In this document: one piece after another, positions 26,210 through 60,674 of the stretch
Layout: each line of letters opens with the position of its first letter
Position numbering within the stretch: the first letter of the stretch is position 1
Origin: Thermoanaerobacterium sp. RBIITD
Lineage (GTDB): Bacteria > Bacillota > Thermoanaerobacteria > Thermoanaerobacterales > Thermoanaerobacteraceae
Assembly: GCF_900205865.1 (NCBI RefSeq)
Contig: NZ_LT906662.1
Location: forward strand, 1,873,411 to 1,937,410
Direction: 5' to 3'
DNA length: 64,000 nt
The notes under the pieces: model-generated
Told to the model about the DNA's origin: nothing
Databases searched by the model: none
Seen by the model: the letters and a program-made list of their open reading frames with translations, nothing else
Translations under genes and position numbers: made by a program

Positions 26210-28179
26210 CCTAGTTTTGCAGCAAATTTTTATGTAACGTAACCCGAAACCATTAATTTCACTGATGATTTCGGGTAAATTTATTTTAAAATTTTGTCAT
26301 TTTTATATGGATTTTTCTGGATTATTGTGTTATAATTAGTATTAAAGGGGGAGCGATGCTACTATGTATCTTAGAAAAGCTACAAATAAAAAAACTGGCC
26401 GTACATACTTATCTATTGTTCATAATTATTGGGATAAAAATACCAAAACCACAAGATCTGTAACCATTGAATCTCTTGGTTACCTTGATGAATTGGAAAA
26501 AAAGTATGAGAATCCTATTGAATTTTTTACTCACGAAGCGAAAAAGTTAGAGGAACAAAGATTATCTGAAAATGCTCATCTTACGTTTACTATTGCTAAA
26601 AATGAGTTGATACCTTCTAACTCTGTTAATCGTAAAAACTTTGGCTATGCAGCTTTTAGTAAAATTTATCATGAGCTTGAAATAGATAAATTTCTAAAAA
26701 ACAGACAACGTCACTCAAAAGAAGAATATGATGCTAATGCTATCATGAAACTTCTTGTATTCTCACGCTTATTGTATCCTGCTTCAAAGAAAAAGACTTA
26801 TGAGAATAAAGATATATTCTTTGAGAAATTTGATTTTTCTTTGGATGATGTTTATAGATGTCTTACTTTTTTCAACAAGCATAGTGAAGCTTTACAACTT
26901 TGGATTCATGAGCACATTAAATCTTTGTATGATCGTAATACAGATTTGGTTTACTATGATGTTACTAACTATTATTTTGAAATTGATGAGCAGGATGAAT
27001 TGCGTAAAAAAGGAGTTTCTAAAGAACACAGACCGGATCCGATTGTACAGATGGGATTATTTATGGATACCAATGGTATCCCCATTACATATAAGCTTTT
27101 TCCTGGTAATGTGCCTGATAAAACTACTTTGATTCCAGCTTTAAGCAGGATCCAACGAGAATATTCTTTAGGTAGAATAATTATTGTAGCAGATAGAGGA
27201 TTAACTACTGGTGATAATATCTGGTATATTCTATCAGCTAAGAACGGCTATGTATTAAGTTATTCTATTCGTAGTGCAGACAAAGATTTTCAGGATTATG
27301 TTCTTGATGAAAGCGGATATATTAATAAGGGTAATGGCTTTAAAATCAAATCAAGACTTTACCCTAGGGAAATTCAAGTAACTGCAACGAATGGCAAAAA
27401 AATAAAAAAGGTAGTAGATGAGAGACAAGTTATTTTCTATAGTCCTGAATATGCAGCTAAAGCCAAGATAGATCGTACTGCTTCAATAGCTAAAGCAATG
27501 GATATGATTAAAAATCCTGGGAAGTACAATAAATCTATATCATATGGTGCAGCTAAATATGTAAAGAATCTTGTTTTTGATGCTGATACAGGGGAAATAT
27601 CCGAGAGTGTGCGTCAGCATTTGGCTTTTGACGAAGAAAAATTACGTGAAGAAGAAAAATTTGATGGCTATTATGCTATAGTGACCAGTGAATACAAAGA
27701 GACGCCTGAAAAAATAATTGACATGTATCGTGGGCTTTGGAAGATAGAAGAATCCTTCAAAGTAACGAAAAGTGATTTTGAAAGTAGACCTGTCTATTTG
27801 TCGCTAAAAGAGCATATTGATGCTCACTTTTTGATATGCTTTATAGCACTTGTAATTGTAAGGATATTAGAATATAGATTGAAAGGCAAATATTCGGTAA
27901 CAGAAATACTTGAAAGTCTTGGTAAGGCATGCTGCAGTCATATCAAAGAGAATTATTATTTATTTGATTTTTGTAATAATGCTCTTGAAGATATTGGAAA
28001 AGAGTTAAACATTGATTTTAGAAAAAAAATTATGAGTCTTGGGGAAATAAAAAAATCTTTAGCACAGACAAAAAAGTTCTGATCTCACCATGAATCTTTG
28101 ACAAAAGCAAAAAGCCCAAAACCCTTTATTTTAAAGAGGTTATGGGCATTTTTTGTCCCTTTTTACTGCAAAAGTCAGG
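26210..28179 (+). mobile_element. Intact IS1634-type (IS4-group) insertion sequence
   Basis: A 1970-bp element with terminal inverted repeats CCTAGTTTTGCAG (26210) and CCTGACTTTTGCAG (inverted, ending 28179). It carries one long transposase gene and a terminator-like hairpin near its right end (28106-28155). It is flanked by a 103-bp direct repeat. IS1634 of Mycoplasma is known to make unusually long, variable target duplications, which fits. Confidence 0.92.
26364..28082 (+). CDS. IS1634-family transposase
   Basis: A 572-residue DDE transposase. N-terminal YLRKATNKKTGRTYLSIVHNYWD is followed by DLVYYDVTNYYFEID with the first Asp. IIIVADRGLTTGDN holds the second Asp (DRG), and FDGYYAIVTSEYKETPEKIIDMYRGLWKIEESFKVTKSDFESRPVYL is the YREK-like region with the catalytic Glu. 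The frame is complete with a start at 26364 behind AAAGGGGGAG. A second, inactivated copy lies at 58784-60500, about 85-90 percent identical by eye over the shared part. Confidence 0.92.
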   Translation: MYLRKATNKKTGRTYLSIVHNYWDKNTKTTRSVTIESLGYLDELEKKYENPIEFFTHEAKKLEEQRLSENAHLTFTIAKNELIPSNSVNRKNFGYAAFSKIYHELEIDKFLKNRQRHSKEEYDANAIMKLLVFSRLLYPASKKKTYENKDIFFEKFDFSLDDVYRCLTFFNKHSEALQLWIHEHIKSLYDRNTDLVYYDVTNYYFEIDEQDELRKKGVSKEHRPDPIVQMGLFMDTNGIPITYKLFPGNVPDKTTLIPALSRIQREYSLGRIIIVADRGLTTGDNIWYILSAKNGYVLSYSIRSADKDFQDYVLDESGYINKGNGFKIKSRLYPREIQVTATNGKKIKKVVDERQVIFYSPEYAAKAKIDRTASIAKAMDMIKNPGKYNKSISYGAAKYVKNLVFDADTGEISESVRQHLAFDEEKLREEEKFDGYYAIVTSEYKETPEKIIDMYRGLWKIEESFKVTKSDFESRPVYLSLKEHIDAHFLICFIALVIVRILEYRLKGKYSVTEILESLGKACCSHIKENYYLFDFCNNALEDIGKELNIDFRKKIMSLGEIKKSLAQTKKF

Positions 28180-53106: not shown

Positions 53107-53412
53107 CTAATCCTGGATTACGTTGGTAGCCCCACATTGTTCCATTGTCTCTCTAATTTTAGATAGTTCTTTTTTGGGAGCTTCTAATGTTACTAAAATG
53201 CCTGATTCTGCATCATCAAGATAAAAATCAGTATATGGCTTCCTTTCGCCGAAGCCTTCTCTTTCTGATTTAAGGTCTATTGTGTTGTCAACCATGAAGT
53301 CCATATCTTTTACTGCTATAATCATATCTTTTCTATCAAAGCCCATTTTTTTAAGCGTATCAACTAGTGCACTAGCTTGGTCTTGCCTTGGCAAAACAGC
53401 AGTGATCTTCAT
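53107..53412 (-). CDS. Small conserved protein of unknown function
   Basis: A 101-residue soluble protein. The start is the ATG at 53412 behind GGAGGTG. The N-terminal ITAVLPRQDQASALVDTLKKMGFDRKDMIIAV looks like a ferredoxin-like alpha/beta fold. ILVTLEAPKKELSKIRETMEQCGATNV at the end repeats that pattern, as in heat-induced stress YflT or DUF-type regulators of general stress. Family not certain. It is divergent from the methyltransferase operon. Confidence 0.6.
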   Translation of the reverse strand: MKITAVLPRQDQASALVDTLKKMGFDRKDMIIAVKDMDFMVDNTIDLKSEREGFGERKPYTDFYLDDAESGILVTLEAPKKELSKIRETMEQCGATNVIQD

Positions 53413-53515
53413 AAAAACACCTCCATTAGTAATATCCCACATTTAAATGTTTATTATAAATAAGATTCAAGCCAAATTTTTCATGTGTTATAAATGTTAA
53501 AAAAGATTTTTAATA

Positions 53516-53577
53516 TTTACATTAAATAATTTATGTGGTATACTTTTTGTAAAAGTACCACCCCTCCATATGGGGGT
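53516..53577 (+). promoter_or_regulatory. Promoter and GC-palindrome operator of the peptide/radical SAM operon
   Basis: TTTACA (53516-53521), exactly 17 bp, then TATACT (53539-53544), with an extended -10 TG at 53536-53537. Just downstream of the predicted start lies ACCCCTCCATATGGGGGT (53560-53577). It has a CCATATGG centre and C/G tracts, resembling operators of CsoR-type metal sensors. Confidence 0.65.
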
Positions 53578-53624
53578 TGTAATGCTTAAAATTGAAATAA
53601 AGAAATTTACAAGGCGGTGACTCA

Positions 53625-54254
53625 ATGAATATAAAAGAAAACATCATAAGTAGATATGAGAAATTAGCAAATGATGAAGATAATTTAAGTTGTGGCGGTA
53701 AAAATATCACACTTGCCGAATTAAAAGAAGGTGAGAATGTCCTTGACCTTGGCTGTGGAAGAGGGAACGACGTTTTAAATGCTGCACAAATAATTGGTGA
53801 AAATGGCGTTGCAGTAGGGCTTGATTTGACAAAAAAGATGATAGATGAAGCAGAAAAAAGTAGAATGAATCACAATATAAAAAATGCTGAATTTATCGTA
53901 GGTGATGTTGAAAACATACCACTTCCTGATGACAAATTTGATGCAGTCATAAGTGACTGTGTTATAAATCATGCAAAAGATAAAGAAAAAGTGTATAGAG
54001 AAATACATAGGGTATTAAAAGATGGTGGTAGATTTATCGTATCTGATGTTGTATCAATTGATAAACTTCCGGATGAAATAATAAATGATCCAAATGCATG
54101 GGCAGATTGCTTCGGTGGTGCGATACCTGAGGAAGATTATATTAAGGCGATCAAAAATGCCGGATTTAGAGAAGTTCAATATTTAAAAAGGCGCGAATAT
54201 AAAAAAGAAGGCTATCTTGTTGCAAGTATAACAATAAAAGGCATCAAAAAATAA
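53625..54254 (+). CDS. SAM-dependent methyltransferase, ArsM-like
   Basis: A 209-residue class I methyltransferase. SAM-binding motif I is VLDLGCGRGNDVLNAA (about 39-54) with the acidic loop GLDLTKKMIDEAE. The motif SDCVINHAKDKEKVYREIHRVLKDGGRFIVSDV and the later ADCFGGAIPEEDYIKAI match the arsenite methyltransferase family, whose members carry conserved cysteines at these sites. Cysteines here are at 23, 44, 112 and 162. ArsM transfers methyl groups to As(III) and needs a thiol reductant. First gene of the operon that also encodes a Cys-rich peptide, a radical SAM enzyme and a thioredoxin system. It could instead methylate another thiophilic substrate. Confidence 0.75.
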   Translation: MNIKENIISRYEKLANDEDNLSCGGKNITLAELKEGENVLDLGCGRGNDVLNAAQIIGENGVAVGLDLTKKMIDEAEKSRMNHNIKNAEFIVGDVENIPLPDDKFDAVISDCVINHAKDKEKVYREIHRVLKDGGRFIVSDVVSIDKLPDEIINDPNAWADCFGGAIPEEDYIKAIKNAGFREVQYLKRREYKKEGYLVASITIKGIKK

Positions 54255-54287
54255 AATTATTTTTGCTAATTAAAGGAGGTGATATGA

Positions 54288-54392
54288 ATGAAGGCAATTA
54301 CAAATAAAGCAGAAAACTGCTGTACGCAAAAGAATACTGTTGCACAGTGCTGCTCAAAATCTTCAAAGCTTGTAGTTGGCTGCCATGATTGA
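54288..54392 (+). CDS. Cysteine-rich 34-residue peptide, candidate RiPP precursor
   Basis: A short gene with a textbook AAAGGAGGTGAT site. The ATG at 54288 opens the Cys-rich frame; the ATG at 54284 gives only seven codons. The peptide has Cys at positions 11, 12, 21, 22 and 32, in a CC-x8-CC-x9-C pattern after a ten-residue N-terminus (MKAITNKAEN). No signal peptide. It sits directly before a radical SAM/SPASM gene, separated by a perfect hairpin. This is the usual layout of sactipeptide/ranthipeptide-like precursors and their maturases. Alternatives: a small metal-binding thiol peptide or metallothionein-like chaperone. I know no named family for it. Confidence 0.7.
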   Translation: MKAITNKAENCCTQKNTVAQCCSKSSKLVVGCHD

Positions 54393-54395
54393 AAG

Positions 54396-54418
54396 ATGCG
54401 GTAGATTATCTACCGCAT
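54396..54418 (+). other. Perfect hairpin between peptide and radical SAM genes
   Basis: ATGCGGTAGA (54396-54405), loop TTA, TCTACCGCAT (54409-54418). No T-run follows, and the radical SAM ribosome site (AAGGAG) starts 6 nt later. It could stabilise the upstream peptide mRNA or partially stop transcription, giving more peptide than enzyme. Confidence 0.6.
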
Positions 54419-54437
54419 AAATTAAGGAGTGATTTTA

Positions 54438-55796
54438 TTGTACTTTAGTAAGTATAACATGATTTTGCCTTTTAGTGAAGAGCTAAAAAGTTACATTTTA
54501 TTAAATTTATTATCGGGTAGCTTTGATATTGCTTCAAAAGATGAAATAGATAAATTAAATAAAATAAAATCAGGAAGCAATATTAAAGACATTGATTTTT
54601 TAGATTATGTAATTGATAGAGGATATATATACGAAGACAAAAAATACGAAGATTTAAGGCTAAATGAAGCATATGAAGAATTTAAAAACATCATGGAAGA
54701 ATCTCCTACACAGGTTTTGCTTGTTCCGACATACGGTTGCAATTTTTCTTGTATTTACTGCTATGAAAGGGGTATACCTGGTAAAAAGGATTTAATAACT
54801 ATTGATGCTGTTGATGCCTTTTTTGATGATATAAATGAAAGGCTTGGGAGAGAGAAAGTAAAACCGTATATTACTTTATTCGGCGGCGAACCATTTATAG
54901 ATACAAAAGAACAAAAAGAAATAATATCTTATATTATCAATAAAAGCAGTGAATTAGGATATGAAATTGCTGCGGTCACAAATGGATACAATCTATTAGA
55001 ATATATGGATATTCTAAAAAAAGCAAATATAAAGGAAATACAAGTAACTCTTGATGGACCACCAGGCATTCATAATAAAAGAAGAAGGTTATTAGGTGGT
55101 GGAGATAGCTTTGAAAAAATATTAAAAGGGATGGATAGTCTTATAAAAAATAATATACCAGTAAATTTAAGGGTTGTTGTTGATAAGGACAATTATGAAT
55201 ATTTACCAGAACTTGCGGTTATTCTTGACAAAAAAGGTTATCTCGATTTACCTTCTGATAAATTTAAAACGCAGGTAGGCAGAAATTATGAATTATTTGA
55301 ATGTTCTCTAAATCATCAAAGCCTTATGACACAAGTAGAACAGTGGGCTACATTTGTTAGGTTATCTGAAAAATATCCCATATTAAAGAAATTTCATAAA
55401 CCAGAATTTAAAGGGATAAGAAATGCAGTAATTTCAGGTACGATGTATACTCCGACATTTGATACATGTCCTGCGGGTAAAAAAGAATGGCTTTATGATT
55501 TATATGGTGATATTTATGGTTGTACTGCTAGCTGTGGAAGAAAGGATTACAGGCTCGGTACGTTTTATCCTGAAAGAGAGATTTTTGACGATAAGTTAAG
55601 TTTGTGGAAAGAAAGAAATATACTAAATATTCCACAGTGTAAGGAATGCCCGGTAAGCCTTGTATGTGGTGGTGGGTGTGGCGTTGTTGCGAATGAGAAG
55701 AATGGAAGTGTATTGTCAACAGACTGTAGAGATATTGAAAAACTATATAAATTGGGAATTGAATATTACAAAGATGATTTATTATCGGTAATTTAG
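54438..55796 (+). CDS. Radical SAM/SPASM protein, candidate peptide maturase
   Basis: A 452-residue enzyme. The TTG at 54438 is preferred (AAGGAG 8 nt upstream). The N-terminal 90 residues (FSKYNMILPFSEELKSYILLNLLSGSFDI) look like the leader region common to peptide-modifying SPASM enzymes. The radical SAM cluster motif is CNFSCIYC (Cys 101, 105, 108), and TLFGGEPF follows. The SPASM region holds TCPAGKKEWLYDLYGDIYGCTASC and QCKECPVSLVCGGGCGV plus a last Cys in STDC, enough to bind auxiliary 4Fe-4S clusters. Family members make thioether or C-C crosslinks in peptides or mature sulfatases. No sulfatase is nearby, whereas a Cys-rich peptide is directly upstream. Confidence 0.85.
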   Translation: MYFSKYNMILPFSEELKSYILLNLLSGSFDIASKDEIDKLNKIKSGSNIKDIDFLDYVIDRGYIYEDKKYEDLRLNEAYEEFKNIMEESPTQVLLVPTYGCNFSCIYCYERGIPGKKDLITIDAVDAFFDDINERLGREKVKPYITLFGGEPFIDTKEQKEIISYIINKSSELGYEIAAVTNGYNLLEYMDILKKANIKEIQVTLDGPPGIHNKRRRLLGGGDSFEKILKGMDSLIKNNIPVNLRVVVDKDNYEYLPELAVILDKKGYLDLPSDKFKTQVGRNYELFECSLNHQSLMTQVEQWATFVRLSEKYPILKKFHKPEFKGIRNAVISGTMYTPTFDTCPAGKKEWLYDLYGDIYGCTASCGRKDYRLGTFYPEREIFDDKLSLWKERNILNIPQCKECPVSLVCGGGCGVVANEKNGSVLSTDCRDIEKLYKLGIEYYKDDLLSVI

Positions 55797-55878
55797 CTCT
55801 GCAGATATGAATAGAAAATTTTTTATAAATCTTTCAAATATGTTCTTATAATGATTTGAAAATTAGGAGGTTATAATT

Positions 55879-57147
55879 ATGGTAAGAGAGATTAATGCCA
55901 ATGACTTCGATGAAGTTGTATTAAAATCAAAAAGGCCGATCGTTGTAGATTTCTATTCGACAGATTGTCCACCATGTGCTCAACTGAAGCCTATATTTCA
56001 TAGATTAGCCGAAGCATATGGTGAATACATGGATTTTATTGAAATATATAGGCAAGGGAATAAAGATTTCGCATTAAGCCTTGGTGTTAAAGGAAGCCCA
56101 ACATTGGTATTTTTTAAAGATGGTAAAGAAACTGGGAAAAGATTAAACGGCTATATATCAAAACCCGATTTACGCAAAGCAATTGAGAGTATAATAGGTT
56201 TCTCACTTCTTGATAAAGAACCCGAAAAGGTTGAGTGTGATGTTCTTATAATGGGTGGTGGTCCTGCAGGTTTAACAGCAGCACTTTATTCAGCAAGAGC
56301 AAATCTCAATACTATAGTTTTAGAAGAGGGTATAACAGGAGGACAGACGGCAAATACCTATTTTATAGAGAATTATCCAGGGACAGACGGGCAAATAGAA
56401 GGGAAAAAATTGACAGATAATATGAGAAAGCAAGCAGAAAGCTTTGGTGCGAAGATAGATGATTTGAAAGAAGTATTTGAGATAAATCTTACGGATAGCG
56501 AGAAATACGTAAGGACAGAAGATAAGATATATTATTCAAAGGCAGTTATCGTTGCTATGGGAGCACAGCCGAGAAAGCTTCCTGCAGAAGGTGAAGTTGA
56601 ATTTAGAGGTAAAGGCATCCACTACTGTGCTATATGTGATGGTGCAATGTATGAAGGTAAACATGTGGCAGTAATTGGTGGAGGAAACTCTGCAATCCAG
56701 GAAGCATTGTACCTTGCAAAGATTGCTGATAAAATTACAGTAATACACGAATTTGATAATCTTCAAGCATCAAACATATTACAAGATAAAGCTTTTTCTA
56801 ATCCTAAAATAAATTTTATCTGGGAATCACATGTCATAAAGGCCAATGGTGATGGAATGTTAAAGTCCCTAACATATAAAAATCTCAAGACTGGAGTTCT
56901 GAATGATGTTTCAGTTGATGGTGCATTTGTATATATTGGTCTTACACCTAAAACAGATTTGTTTAAAGGTGTACTAAATTTAAATAAATATAGTTATATA
57001 AAGACCGATGATGACCTTATGACAAATGTAAAAGGCGTTTTTGCTGCTGGTGATATTAGAGATAAAAAAATAAGGCAAGTAGTAACAGCTGCAGGTGATG
57101 GTGCTGTAGCAGCGATAAATGCAGAAAGGTATATATCAGAATTATAA
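55879..57147 (+). CDS. Thioredoxin-thioredoxin reductase fusion
   Basis: A 422-residue fusion. Residues 1-105 are a thioredoxin domain with active site CPPC (30-33; WCxxC is replaced by DCPPC) and the cis-Pro loop KGSPTLVFF. Residues about 118-422 are an NADPH-type thioredoxin reductase: GGGPAGLTAALYSARA, GGQTANTYFIENYPG, redox CAIC (250-253), GGGNSAIQEALYLAK and the FAD-binding end GVFAAGDIRDKKIRQVVTAAGDGAVAA. It would deliver electrons to a disulfide or arsenical/thiol substrate. The spacing (about 80 bp from the radical SAM gene, own AGGAGG) suggests the same operon. Confidence 0.92.
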   Translation: MVREINANDFDEVVLKSKRPIVVDFYSTDCPPCAQLKPIFHRLAEAYGEYMDFIEIYRQGNKDFALSLGVKGSPTLVFFKDGKETGKRLNGYISKPDLRKAIESIIGFSLLDKEPEKVECDVLIMGGGPAGLTAALYSARANLNTIVLEEGITGGQTANTYFIENYPGTDGQIEGKKLTDNMRKQAESFGAKIDDLKEVFEINLTDSEKYVRTEDKIYYSKAVIVAMGAQPRKLPAEGEVEFRGKGIHYCAICDGAMYEGKHVAVIGGGNSAIQEALYLAKIADKITVIHEFDNLQASNILQDKAFSNPKINFIWESHVIKANGDGMLKSLTYKNLKTGVLNDVSVDGAFVYIGLTPKTDLFKGVLNLNKYSYIKTDDDLMTNVKGVFAAGDIRDKKIRQVVTAAGDGAVAAINAERYISEL

Positions 57148-57238
57148 GTTAAAAGCGGGTATGTAATATAATTTTCTAAAACGTTGGATGGAAAACCGCC
57201 ACTAATCAATTTCTATATTTGTATGAAGGGAGATAATT

Positions 57239-57961
57239 ATGGAGTGCTGCGAGAAAAAATATATGGAAAACTGCATGGTATGCGGAAAGCCGCTTATTTA
57301 TTTAGAAAAGCCGGTTTTGAAAAAATGCGAGTACTGTGGTATAGAAGAATTAACTCGTGCCCACTGTATGGATGGGCATTACGTCTGCGACAGTTGTCAC
57401 GCAAAGGACGGCATTGAAGTAATAAAAGAATATTGTCTTAATACAAAATCAAGAGATCCTATGGAAATAGTTGAAAATATAATGGCTGATAGTAGGATAC
57501 CAATGCATGGACCAGAACACCATGCATTGGTGCCAGCTGCAATTGTTACTGCATATAAAAATTTAACAGGAAAGGCATCTGACGATGATATAATTGAAAC
57601 AATTAATAGAGGTAAAGAAGTACCTGGTGGTGTGTGCGGATATTACGGTGCATGTGGTGCAGGCGTAGGTGTTGGCGTTGCTATTAGTGTTATTTATAAA
57701 GCTACACCTTATACACCTTTAAAACGCTCGAAAGCCCATTTAGCGGTAGCAAATGCGCTTAAAAGAATTGGAGAAGCTGGTGGTGCTAGGTGCTGTAAAA
57801 AATGTACAAGAATTTCCATAGAGGAGGCCGTAAAATTTTTTGAAATGGAATTTGACATTAGATTTCCAAAGGGTTTCAAAAGGGAGAATAAGTGTAATTA
57901 TTCTAAGATAAACCGGGAATGCTATATAGGGTGTAAATACAGGAATAAGAAAGGAATGTGA
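57239..57961 (+). CDS. DUF5714 cysteine-rich protein
   Basis: A 240-residue protein with about 20 cysteines. The N-terminal zinc-ribbon-like part is CMVCGKPLIYLEKPVLKKCEYCG and HYVCDSCHA. The middle helical segment MHGPEHHALVPAAIVTAYKNLTG is followed by GVCGYYGACGAGVGVGVAISV. The Cys-rich end (GGARCCKKCTRISIEEAVKFFE, CNYSKINRECYIGCKYR) completes it. This is the DUF5714 pattern, often beside methyltransferases and radical SAM proteins in anaerobes. Function unknown; likely binds metals or Fe-S clusters. It overlaps or abuts the next gene. Confidence 0.78.
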   Translation: MECCEKKYMENCMVCGKPLIYLEKPVLKKCEYCGIEELTRAHCMDGHYVCDSCHAKDGIEVIKEYCLNTKSRDPMEIVENIMADSRIPMHGPEHHALVPAAIVTAYKNLTGKASDDDIIETINRGKEVPGGVCGYYGACGAGVGVGVAISVIYKATPYTPLKRSKAHLAVANALKRIGEAGGARCCKKCTRISIEEAVKFFEMEFDIRFPKGFKRENKCNYSKINRECYIGCKYRNKKGM

Positions 57962-57966
57962 TTATT

Positions 57967-58350
57967 ATGGAATTGGGTATAACAAAAAAGGTAGATTATT
58001 CATTTGAGGAGACCATAACTAAGGTTAAAGAGGCTTTAAAAGCTGTTGGATTCGGTGTTCTTACTGAAATTAATCTTAAAGAGACTATTAAGAAAAAGAT
58101 TAATAAAGACTTTAAAAATTACGTAATTCTCGGTGCCTGCAATCCAAATCATGCATATGAAGTACTATCAAAAGAACCTATTGTAGGACTTATGCTACCA
58201 TGTAATGTAATTGTATATGAAGATAATGGCAAAACAGTTGTATCGGCAATAAATCCTGAGGAGGTAATAGGCATGATAGACAATGACGAGTTAAAAGATG
58301 TCGCTAATGTTGTAACAGAAAAATTAAAAAAAGCCATAGAGACGCTTTAA
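57967..58350 (+). CDS. DUF302 protein
   Basis: A 127-residue protein of the DUF302 family (YSFEETITKVKEALKAVGFGVLTEINLKETIKKKI...YVILGACNPNHAYEVLSKEPIVGLMLPCNVIVYED). I choose the ATG at 57967. Members are small alpha/beta proteins with a conserved C-x-P-x-x-A segment and a second LPCN motif, and are often near metal or sulfur genes. The exact role is unknown. Last intact gene of the operon. Confidence 0.85.
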   Translation: MELGITKKVDYSFEETITKVKEALKAVGFGVLTEINLKETIKKKINKDFKNYVILGACNPNHAYEVLSKEPIVGLMLPCNVIVYEDNGKTVVSAINPEEVIGMIDNDELKDVANVVTEKLKKAIETL

Positions 58351-58372
58351 AATGTACTTGAGGTGATATATA

Positions 58373-58459
58373 TGGCAAAAAATATAGAGATGGATGTAAA
58401 ATCTGCTATAGAAATTCTCAGTAAAGGTAATGAATTAGCTCTAGGTAAAAATTATTAAT
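58373..58459 (+). pseudogene. 28-codon gene start, truncated
   Basis: MAKNIEMDVKSAIEILSKGN...LGKNY then TAA, with GAGGTGATATAT upstream. The helix-like start looks like the beginning of a longer protein cut by a mobile-element end that begins at 58460. Too short to classify. Confidence 0.4.
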
Positions 58460-58530
58460 GTCAATAGTCTGTAAAAATGTTACCTAAAAAAGAACAAATT
58501 TATTTAGTAAAAATGTCATCTCTACGGTAT
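58460..58530. mobile_element. Remnant terminus of an IS21-like element
   Basis: The sequence starts TGTCAATAGTCTGTAAAAATG and contains two copies of GTAAAAATGTYAYCT about 42 bp apart, a layout like IS21 multiple terminal repeats. No transposase remains. From 58531 to 58685 I see nothing more. Confidence 0.45.
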
Positions 58531-58685
58531 GCTTTATATTTTAGTTGTAGCATTAGGAACTATGATAACAAAATAAGAATTGAAACTAGGAATTTTTTCA
58601 TATGTTGCTATGGCAAGGTTGGTTAGTGATATAAAATTAAAGGTATTTTAAAAAAGGGCATAGGAAATTAAGCCTTGATAAATAC

Positions 58686-60674
58686 CCTGACTTTTGCAGC
58701 AAAAAGAGATAAAAAAAGCCTTAAACCTCTTTAAAATAAAGGGTTTCGGGCTTTTTAAATTTGTCCCAAAGATGTAGTGAAAATTAACTTTTTTTCGTTT
58801 CTCCTAAAATTTTTTTAATCTCTCCAAGTGTCATAAACTTTTTACTAAAATCAATGTTTAACTCTTTTCCGATATCTTCAAGTACATCATTATAAAAATC
58901 AAAAAGATAATAGTTCTCCTTAACATGACTACAAGATGCTTTACTTAAGCTTTCAAGCATTTCTGTTACTGAATATTTGCCCTTCGATCTGTGTTCCAGT
59001 ATCCTTACAATTACAAGAGCTATAAAACATGTCAGAAAATGAGCATCAATATGCTCCTTCAACGATAAATAAACTGGCCTACTCTCAAAATCACTTTTTG
59101 TTACCTTGAAGGACTCTTCTATCTTCCAAAGTCCACGGTACATCTCAATGATTTTCTCAGGTACCTCTTTGTATTCACTTGTAACAATAGCATAATAACC
59201 GTCGAATTTTTCTTCTTCACGTAATTTTTCTTCGTCAAAAGTCAAGCTTTGATGTACGTTCTCAGATATTTCACCTGTATCAGCATCAAATGTAAGGTTT
59301 TTCACATATTTGGCTGTACCATAAGATATAGATTTATTATACTTTCCAGGATTTTTAATCAGGTCCATTGCTTTAGCTAGTACAGCAGCACGATCTTGCT
59401 TGGCCTTTGCTGCATATTCAGGACTATAGAAAATAACCTGTTTTTCATGTACTACCTTTTTTATCTTTTTACCATTCGTTGCAGTCACTTGAATTTCCCT
59501 AGGATAAAGTCTTGATTTAATTTTAAAACCATTACCTTTGTTAATATATCCATTTTCATCAAGAACATAATCCTGAAAATCTTTATCTGCACCACGAACA
59601 GAATAACTTAATACATATCCATTTTTAGCAGATAAAATATGCCAAATGTTATCTCCAGTAGTTAATCCTTTGTCTGCTACAATAATTATTCTACCTAAAG
59701 AATATTCTCGTTGGATCCTGCTTAAAGCTGGAATCAAAGTAGTTTTATCAGGCGCATTACCAGGAAAAAGCTTATATGTAATAGGCATACCATTTGTGTC
59801 CATGAATAAGCCCATCTGTACAATTGGATCTGGACGGTGTTCTTTTGAAACTCCCTTTTTACGCAGATCATCCTGTTCATCTATTTCAAAGTAATAATTT
59901 GTGACATCATAGTAAACCAAATCTGTATTTCGATTATACTGGTTTTTAATATGCTCATGTAACCAAAGCTGAAGAGAATCACTGTGTTTGTTAAACAGAG
60001 TAAGACACCTATATATATCATCCAAAGAGAAATCAAATTTTTCAAAGAATATATCTCTGTTTTCATAAGTCTTTTTCTTTGAAGCGGGATAAAGCAAGAG
60101 TGAGAATACCAGAAGTTTCATAATAGCATTTGCATCATATTCTTCTTTTGAGTGCCGTTGTCTGTTTCTGAGGAATTTATCTATTTCAAGTTCATGATAA
60201 ATTTTATCAAAGCTGCATAGCCAAAATTCTTGCGAGCGTTGTAATTAGAATTCATAGATTCATTTAAGGCAATTTGGAGATTAACAGGAAGCTTCTTGTC
60301 ATTATTCTTTTCATTCATTTTTCGAACTTCTTCAGTAAAAAATGCAATTGGGTCATCATATTCTTTTTCAAGTTCATCCAGATAACCAATAGAGCGAACC
60401 GTGGCTGTGCGAGATTGCTTTGTTTGCTTATCATAATAACTGTTAACAATTGACAAATAGGTTCTTCCTGTTTTATGGTTTGTACTTTTTTTAGATACAA
60501 AATTAAATACCTCTACAGTCTTGTGATATCAAAGAATTACTCTTTTATTATACCACAATCCTCTAGAAAACGACATTAAAATTTGACAAAATTTTAAAAT
60601 AAAAATACCCGAAATCATTAGTAGAATAAATGGTTTCGGATTACATTACATAAAAATTTGCTGCAAAATTGGGG
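58686..60674 (-). mobile_element. Second IS1634-type element, inactive
   Basis: The ends CCTGACTTTTGCAGC (58686) and CCCCAATTTTGCAGC (inverted, ending 60674) match the intact copy at 26210-28179. Unlike that copy, no long direct repeat flanks it. The transposase gene has two frameshifts. A conserved internal hairpin lies near 58715-58760. Confidence 0.85.
58784..60500 (-). pseudogene. IS1634-family transposase with two frameshifts
   Basis: Compared with the intact copy, a small indel near the start separates MYLKK from NHKTGRTYLSIVNSYYDKQ. A one-base deletion near 60190 (TTTAGT to TTTGAT region) then breaks the frame between NFGYAA and KIYHELEID. The remaining frame 58784-60121 still carries the DDE core (DLVYYDVTNYYFEID, IIIVADKGLTTG with DRG changed to DKG, YRGLWKIEESFKVTKSDFE). 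It is inactive. Confidence 0.88.

Follow-up and report, generated by a model that had tools for sequence, protein, structure and literature searches.

Arsenic methyltransferases of the ArsM type use thioredoxin-type reductants, and CmArsM binds As(III) through cysteine residues of the kind discussed below. In the arsinothricin and arsenosugar pathways, ArsM is paired with a radical S-adenosylmethionine (SAM) enzyme (ArsL/ArsS). Among the maturases of ribosomally synthesized and post-translationally modified peptides (RiPPs), some of the families nearest to the radical SAM/SPASM enzyme described here, such as CteB and PapB, carry the annotation of thioether-forming enzymes. Here we analyse a stretch of 64,000 nucleotides from the genome of Thermoanaerobacterium sp. 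RBIITD (NCBI RefSeq GCF_900205865.1, contig NZ_LT906662.1, positions 1,873,411 to 1,937,410 of the forward strand; hereafter the window), in which an ArsM-like methyltransferase, a short cysteine peptide, a radical SAM/SPASM protein and a fused thioredoxin-thioredoxin reductase (Trx-TrxR) stand in one operon.

The gene set is co-directional and lies behind a single sigma-70-like promoter (interval 53516-58459 of the window). The promoter and the six genes that an earlier note had placed in this interval were all confirmed in the sequence. For the operon as a whole we propose, from sequence comparisons and with a probability of roughly 0.55, that an intracellular thiol peptide, matured by a radical SAM enzyme, serves soft metal(loid) or sulfur chemistry together with an ArsM-type methyltransferase and a reductase of its own. 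The RiPP part of this reading is well supported, and we infer its metalloid part.

The peptide and its probable maturase

The gene for the 34-residue peptide is genuine and under strong selection. Compared with three congeners, its last 18 codons exhibit 0.02 nonsynonymous substitutions per site (dN) against 0.8-2.7 synonymous ones (dS), the mark of purifying selection. A scan of 81 loci, in which some genomes appear twice, recovered the peptide in 68, with 30 distinct 16-residue C-terminal cores. These end in A-Q-C-C-[SA]-K-x-S-x-[ILV]-[VI]-x-G-C-H-[DN]-stop, with one A at the S position and, infrequently, M or T at the second hydrophobic site; the pattern used in the scan fixes AQCC, K and CH[DN]. 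The start is mostly M-[KR]-x-x-[TS] (that scan misplaced the starts of L058 and L066). The 13 loci without the peptide comprise eight from Actinobacteria, four in which the contig stops near the maturase gene (L062, L078, L087, L092), and L071. A looser pattern turned up nothing else convincing in the vicinity of the maturase, and no family model matched any of the five peptides scanned beyond an E-value of 0.2. The arrangement CC-x8-CC-x9-C described in the earlier note holds for the window peptide. In its relatives only the last three cysteines (AQCC...GCHD) are invariant, so that the conservation of all five cysteines is reduced to three: the first CC pair is absent in eight peptides (L079-L083, L086, L089, L090) and has another spacing in Carboxydothermus. 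A selenocysteine form of the peptide was also considered and rejected. A pattern allowing UGA, applied up to 6 kb from the maturase in 67 loci, gave none at the place of the peptide, and its two matches (L045, L064), far from the maturase, were judged to be due to chance.

Peptide and maturase are distributed together. Among 199 relative genomes, the maturase (E-value<10-140) occurs in 20, and the peptide profile (E-value<10-12) matches in exactly the same 20. There was one more maturase-like match (G156, 32% identity), in a genome lacking a peptide match, and two more matches of the peptide profile (E-value = 0.005) that look like chance. Both genes are present in all nine genomes of the genus and in none of the ten listed genomes of a sister genus (g3).

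The most likely start of the maturase is the TTG codon at 54438 (MYFSKYN...), which has AAGGAG eight bases upstream and agrees with the starts of its homologues; the start given earlier for this open reading frame (ORF) is corrected accordingly. The protein exhibits the radical SAM CxxxCxxC core and a complete seven-cysteine SPASM motif, and the residues concerned (C101, C105, C108 and C344, C362, C401, C404, C410, C414, C430) are invariant in 12 aligned homologues. One homologue (L073) passes the SPASM domain model TIGR04085 with 39.3 bits against a cut-off of 27. In one locus (L051) the maturase frame is broken near its start. As in RiPP systems, a short precursor is encoded beside the maturase and co-occurs with it.

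Among the matches listed, none places the maturase in a named family. The best NCBIfam maturase scores of the window protein are 157/600 bits for CefB (NF038107) and 137/525 bits for TIGR04463. Four homologues score like the window protein across NCBIfam, and among the matches listed for the five proteins scanned, those to CefB, TIGR04463, Clo7bot, SCIFF, CcpM and PapB are far below cut-off. The earlier note had named grouping with sulfatase-maturing enzymes as a sign that the RiPP interpretation fails. By sequence, RiPP maturases are closer: the window protein reaches 52.8 bits against a cut-off of 349 for the anaerobic sulfatase maturase model TIGR03942, and its best PDB match is CteB (86.5 bits, versus 57 for an anaerobic sulfatase-maturating enzyme). 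Identity as a sulfatase-maturing enzyme was rejected on these scores. A predicted model of a fused homologue (mean predicted local distance difference test, pLDDT, 87.5; predicted template modelling (TM) score 0.66) likewise retrieves CteB first (E-value = 2 × 10-17, TM score 0.68), with the sulfatase enzyme at TM score 0.69 and E-value = 3 × 10-14; fold similarity alone cannot separate a RiPP maturase from a sulfatase maturase. The N-terminus of the model (three strands, three helices) looks by inspection like a recognition element. The pair of precursor and SPASM maturase seen in the earlier note is thus borne out, with the peptide present, three cysteines conserved and sequence scores nearer to RiPP maturases. 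Peptide and maturase very probably constitute a RiPP-type pair, and this conclusion is well supported.

Partner genes and their distribution

The best PDB matches of the methyltransferase are arsenic methyltransferases, namely CmArsM (4kw7/4fr0). Its Cys112 and Cys162 align with C174 and C224 of CmArsM, the As(III)-binding positions. These two residues are invariant in 43/43 aligned methyltransferases, and Cys23 is conserved in all 42 that have a residue there; the set consists of ORFs called upstream of the maturase, which leaves out most Myxococcota copies. The alignment with CmArsM pairs Cys112 and Cys162 only and does not show Cys23 to be the equivalent of C72.

The earlier note had asked whether methyltransferase, Trx-TrxR, DUF5714 and DUF302 co-occur. 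When genome contigs were scanned using the maturase alignment, 69 loci were obtained. The 59 loci tested exclude the eight from Actinobacteria as well as L068 and L069 (matches without a gene start), and 35 of them count as complete, the maturase having 3.5 kb or more of flanking sequence on each side. These 35 include an identical pair (L039/L040) and several close relatives. Genes were counted anywhere in the locus (methyltransferase within 6 kb, Trx-TrxR within 7 kb), and two matches on the same strand, within 1.6 kb of each other, sufficed for Trx-TrxR. The methyltransferase is present in 35/35 complete loci, the peptide in 34/35 and Trx-TrxR in 33/35, and all three occur together in 33/35, so the association of methyltransferase and reductase with peptide and maturase stands. 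The Trx-TrxR fusion of the window scores 355 bits against TIGR01292 (cut-off 343), and 42 single fused ORFs of 395-490 aa were found among the loci.

DUF5714 is present in 16/35 complete loci, and its link to the system is supported by 11 loci in which it is fused C-terminally to the radical SAM enzyme. Its helical domain is predicted fairly confidently (mean pLDDT 83). A Foldseek search gave no match with an E-value up to 0.001, and a sequence profile found nothing in the PDB below an E-value of 0.06. Resemblances to the cysteine desulfidase CyuA (Z = 5.3, root-mean-square deviation 4.0, 133 aligned residues) and to MmgE (Z = 5.2) were too weak to use. The DUF302 cluster covers 4/68 loci (the window, L035, L036, L043). 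The place of DUF302 in the system was therefore not borne out, and we leave it out of the core. Beyond maturase, methyltransferase, Trx-TrxR and the clustered DUF5714, every neighbour cluster is confined to at most 10/68 loci.

The loci with the module come from Firmicutes, Spirochaetia, Leptospiraceae, Myxococcota-type metagenome-assembled genomes and others, and Thermoanaerobacterium and Desulfosporosinus metallidurans are among the anaerobes that carry it. Six of the 12 Myxococcota-type loci hold maturase, methyltransferase, Trx-TrxR and peptide, the rest being mostly cut by contig ends; in several of this type, methyltransferase, peptide and Trx-TrxR lie on the strand opposite to the maturase. 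A single, short Hydrogenedentota contig (L081) has maturase, methyltransferase and peptide only. A search of plasmids returned three distant matches (25-29% identity).

Microbispora, Sphaerisporangium and Streptomyces possess a maturase homologue at 29-32% identity. In 8/8 loci (L094-L097, L100-L103) it is followed by an ArsM-like methyltransferase and preceded by a short peptide, DCC...GC[ED]-stop, found by eye and with a CC...C-stop pattern. The methyltransferase of L094 ends in CC and scores 175 bits against the arsenite methyltransferase model (cut-off 263). Apparently this is an unnamed RiPP-like cluster of peptide, SPASM enzyme and methyltransferase. Since the actinobacterial loci pair them, the combination of a cysteine peptide, a SPASM enzyme and an ArsM-like methyltransferase is wider than the module of the anaerobes. 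The L094 stretch also encodes an OPT-type transporter, two TldD/PmbA-type peptidases and a flavin-monooxygenase-like protein. For another distant maturase (L021) the peptide match is unconvincing.

Table 1. Features of the operon, in window coordinates
Feature	Position	Strand	Basis
Sigma-70-like promoter, TTTACA-17 bp-TATACT	53516..53544	+	Direct reading
Palindrome ACCCCTCCATATGGGGGT, candidate operator of CsoR-family type	53560..53577	+	Similar palindrome in eight congeners
ArsM-like SAM methyltransferase, 209 aa, Cys23/Cys112/Cys162	53625..54254	+	NF008823, PDB matches
34-aa precursor-like peptide MKAITNKAENCCTQKNTVAQCCSKSSKLVVGCHD	54288..54392	+	Conserved core, purifying selection
Radical SAM/SPASM peptide maturase, CxxxCxxC and seven-Cys SPASM motif	54438..55796	+	Family and PDB matches
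Fused thioredoxin (CPPC)-thioredoxin reductase (CAIC), Trx-TrxR	55879..57147	+	Pfam, NCBIfam
DUF5714, N-terminal Zn-finger-like part and Cys-rich helical domain	57239..57961	+	PF18978, 209 bits
DUF302 protein, probably lineage-specific	57958..58350	+	PF03625
31-codon stub, probably left over from a second methyltransferase gene	58363..58458	+	Start resembles L035/L036 gene

The start of the stub at the end of the operon resembles a 182-aa methyltransferase whose gene is whole in two sister species (L035/L036) and stands there after DUF302 (at +3822). This likeness was seen by eye only and was not reported by tblastn. A DDE transposase gene lies just past the stub (within 58363-60121), and the segment 58686-60235 has an 86% identical copy at 26630-28179. 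Upstream of the operon, a divergent 111-aa gene (53107-53442, minus strand) is also present in the eight congeners examined; family-model scans gave no convincing match for it. Elsewhere in the same genome (L110:3710-8144, within 3107000-3116000), CsoR, RseC-like and thioredoxin genes precede a second DUF5714 gene, which overlaps the start of a 373-aa ArsM-like protein ending in SSCC.

Candidate operator and possible function

In an alignment of the window genome with eight congeners, the promoter elements TTTAC[AT] and TATACT are kept, and the palindrome just downstream of the -10 element has a similar counterpart at the same place in all eight. It resembles operators of the CsoR family, for which we regard it as a candidate. 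According to a paper on CsoR-RcnR proteins (PMC10318464), this family includes copper and reactive-sulfur sensors, most of its members bind pseudo-palindromes with G/C tracts, and a TAC/GTA inverted repeat occurs in several of their operators. We found no description of a CsoR-type operator ahead of such a gene set in open-licence PMC papers. Strict sites of the type TACCC-N2-10-GGGTA lie upstream of 13/48 operons versus 6/321 control ORFs taken from the same loci (Fisher p about 10-8, a value to be taken only as a guide, since the pattern was chosen after seeing sites, the loci are related and some starts are wrong). A looser pattern, the only one that the window site fits, gave 18/48 versus 18/321. 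CsoR-family genes are present in 24/24 operon genomes tested. Near a second such gene elsewhere in the window genome (L111:4244-5137), the palindrome ACCACCCCCTATATATAAGGGGGG (minus strand), much like that of the operon, lies between this CsoR-family gene and a downstream DUF3006 gene.

We infer from these data a scheme for the crosslink chemistry, the intracellular location, the bound element, the methylation substrate, the role of DUF5714 and the signal sensed. The product of the operon would be a ribosomal thiol peptide that is both made and used intracellularly. Its maturase, the radical SAM/SPASM enzyme, would recognise the conserved N-terminus of the peptide (M[KR]xx[TS]) and modify the C-terminal 16-residue core, the likely change being a crosslink, C-S or similar, that would hold the vicinal CC against the GCH(D/N) end. 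Roughly half of the loci have DUF5714, either adjacent or fused, which may assist as a metal- or Fe-S-binding partner domain, and the dedicated Trx-TrxR fusion would keep the matured, thiol-rich peptide reduced. The mature peptide may then be a ligand or carrier for a soft element, be it Cu(I), sulfane sulfur or a metalloid resembling As(III). With its As(III)-binding cysteines, the ArsM-like methyltransferase would methylate the bound element or the peptide itself, and a CsoR-family repressor would switch the operon on when the soft element is sensed.

Several observations weigh against this scheme. The methyltransferase scores 205.8 bits against the arsenite methyltransferase model NF008823, below its cut-off of 263. 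The arsenite exporter ACR3 (above cut-off) occurs in 12/20 operon genomes versus 82/179 others; it is not enriched, and an association with arsenic-resistance operons through this gene was rejected. ACR3 was not found in the window genome (ArsB was not searched for), and only five loci have ArsR-like genes, identified by eye, at distances of 1.9-6 kb. The site pattern was chosen once some sites had been seen, and the loci share ancestry. In the window genome itself, the looser form has six matches on both strands, equal to four places including the operon promoter, not clearly more than the two of a reversed control, and the strict form has none (control, 4). CsoR-family genes are common (6/14 control genomes), and sites of this type indicate Cu(I) or persulfide as much as a metalloid. 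L042 has no Trx-TrxR match, and L071 has neither peptide nor Trx-TrxR. The fourth recurrent neighbour cluster consists of heterogeneous ABC ATPases at varied places in 10 loci, and the clustering would miss non-homologous proteases or exporters.

The main rival explanation, to which we give a minor share of belief, is a thiol cofactor for redox or sulfur trafficking with no metalloid role. The peptide would behave like a low-mass thiol, a sort of peptide bacillithiol, or like a persulfide carrier recycled by Trx-TrxR. Reactive sulfur would induce the operon through a CsoR/CstR-type regulator, and the methyltransferase would make an S-methylated form. The CsoR-type sites are consistent with this, as are DUF302 and a disulfide-reductase/rhodanese fusion after the L043 operon and a desulfoferrodoxin in L053; the three ArsM-type cysteines kept throughout the 43 aligned methyltransferases are unexpected for a plain thiol methyltransferase. 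The surroundings of CsoR-family genes speak for our scheme and for the thiol cofactor alike, and against a copper-handling peptide. In the 32 CsoR loci examined, pattern tags place a thioredoxin-like ORF within 1.5 kb in 17 and an HMA/P-type ATPase ORF nearby in nine, so these CsoR genes are not mainly copA-linked. That the peptide is a Cu(I)-binding RiPP, or metallothionein-like, under CsoR control is improbable, even if the same sites would suit it, the CC, C and H of the core could bind Cu(I) and an OPT-family transporter gene adjoins the actinobacterial version; copper handling has no need for an ArsM-like methyltransferase.

A short cysteine-rich peptide ahead of a SPASM enzyme also recalls an ordinary sactipeptide or ranthipeptide bacteriocin cluster. 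We disfavour this strongly: the core is near-identical across phyla instead of diversifying, and no recurrent exporter, protease or immunity gene was seen in the non-actinobacterial loci, bar the mixed ABC ATPases. It is equally hard to believe that the small ORF is a regulatory leader and not an enzyme substrate. It is short and in most loci immediately precedes the maturase gene, but selection acts on its amino acid sequence, and several Myxococcota-type loci place it between methyltransferase and Trx-TrxR, away from the maturase.

Returning to the soft-metal(loid) or sulfur peptide that we prefer, a bolder and doubtful extension is that an ArsM-type enzyme has a dedicated thiol partner in a new class of ribosomal peptide. 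The CC...GCH(D/N) peptide would present a soft metal(loid) to the methyltransferase as a pre-organised thiolate complex and be recycled by Trx-TrxR, yielding either an organometal(loid) peptide or a detoxification cycle carried by the peptide. The actinobacterial branch, with its OPT transporter and TldD-type peptidases, might use the same chemistry in a natural-product or metallophore pathway.

If our preferred reading is true, a strongly conserved and probably intracellular radical-SAM peptide works with an arsenic-methyltransferase-like enzyme in several phyla. This would provide a likely substrate for an unnamed SPASM maturase family and a context for DUF5714, and would link RiPP chemistry to soft-metal or sulfur stress. 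It may represent a new metal- or thiol-handling peptide pathway. Because only a few genes are involved and there are cultured, named species that possess them, each step of the scheme is directly testable.

Comparison with known systems

No description of this gene set was found in open-licence PMC papers; the Haft work naming MbdU and MduS might contain one. The two proteins are reportedly 'double selenoproteins' (Haft and Tolstoy, in 2025). The window DUF5714 protein matches MbdU with 158 bits, against a cut-off of 600, and the operon has cysteine where MbdU/MduS carry selenocysteine. A further parallel is the second DUF5714 gene of the window genome, adjacent to the ArsM-like protein with a terminal CC. 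PMC13188914 likewise lists MbdU/MduS under the name 'double selenoproteins'.

Among thioether systems, CteB/SCIFF (ranthipeptide) is like the operon in that a SPASM maturase acts on a short cysteine-rich peptide. The precursor differs, however, and the window maturase scores 76 bits against TIGR03974 (cut-off 425); to our knowledge the SCIFF system has no ArsM-like methyltransferase or Trx-TrxR. The CefB and TIGR04463 maturases belong to the highest-scoring NCBIfam maturase families, of which the window maturase is not a member. The ArsM models of the arsinothricin and arsenosugar pathways (NF040538, NF038099) match the window methyltransferase below cut-off, and we know of no ribosomal peptide, SPASM RiPP maturase or Trx-TrxR in those pathways. 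CmArsM (4kw7/4fr0; NF008823) shares with the window protein the SAM methyltransferase type and the C174/C224 equivalents. In contrast to its chains of 377-383 residues, the operon enzyme of 209 aa does without the C-terminal part and is tied to a RiPP-like pair of peptide and maturase.

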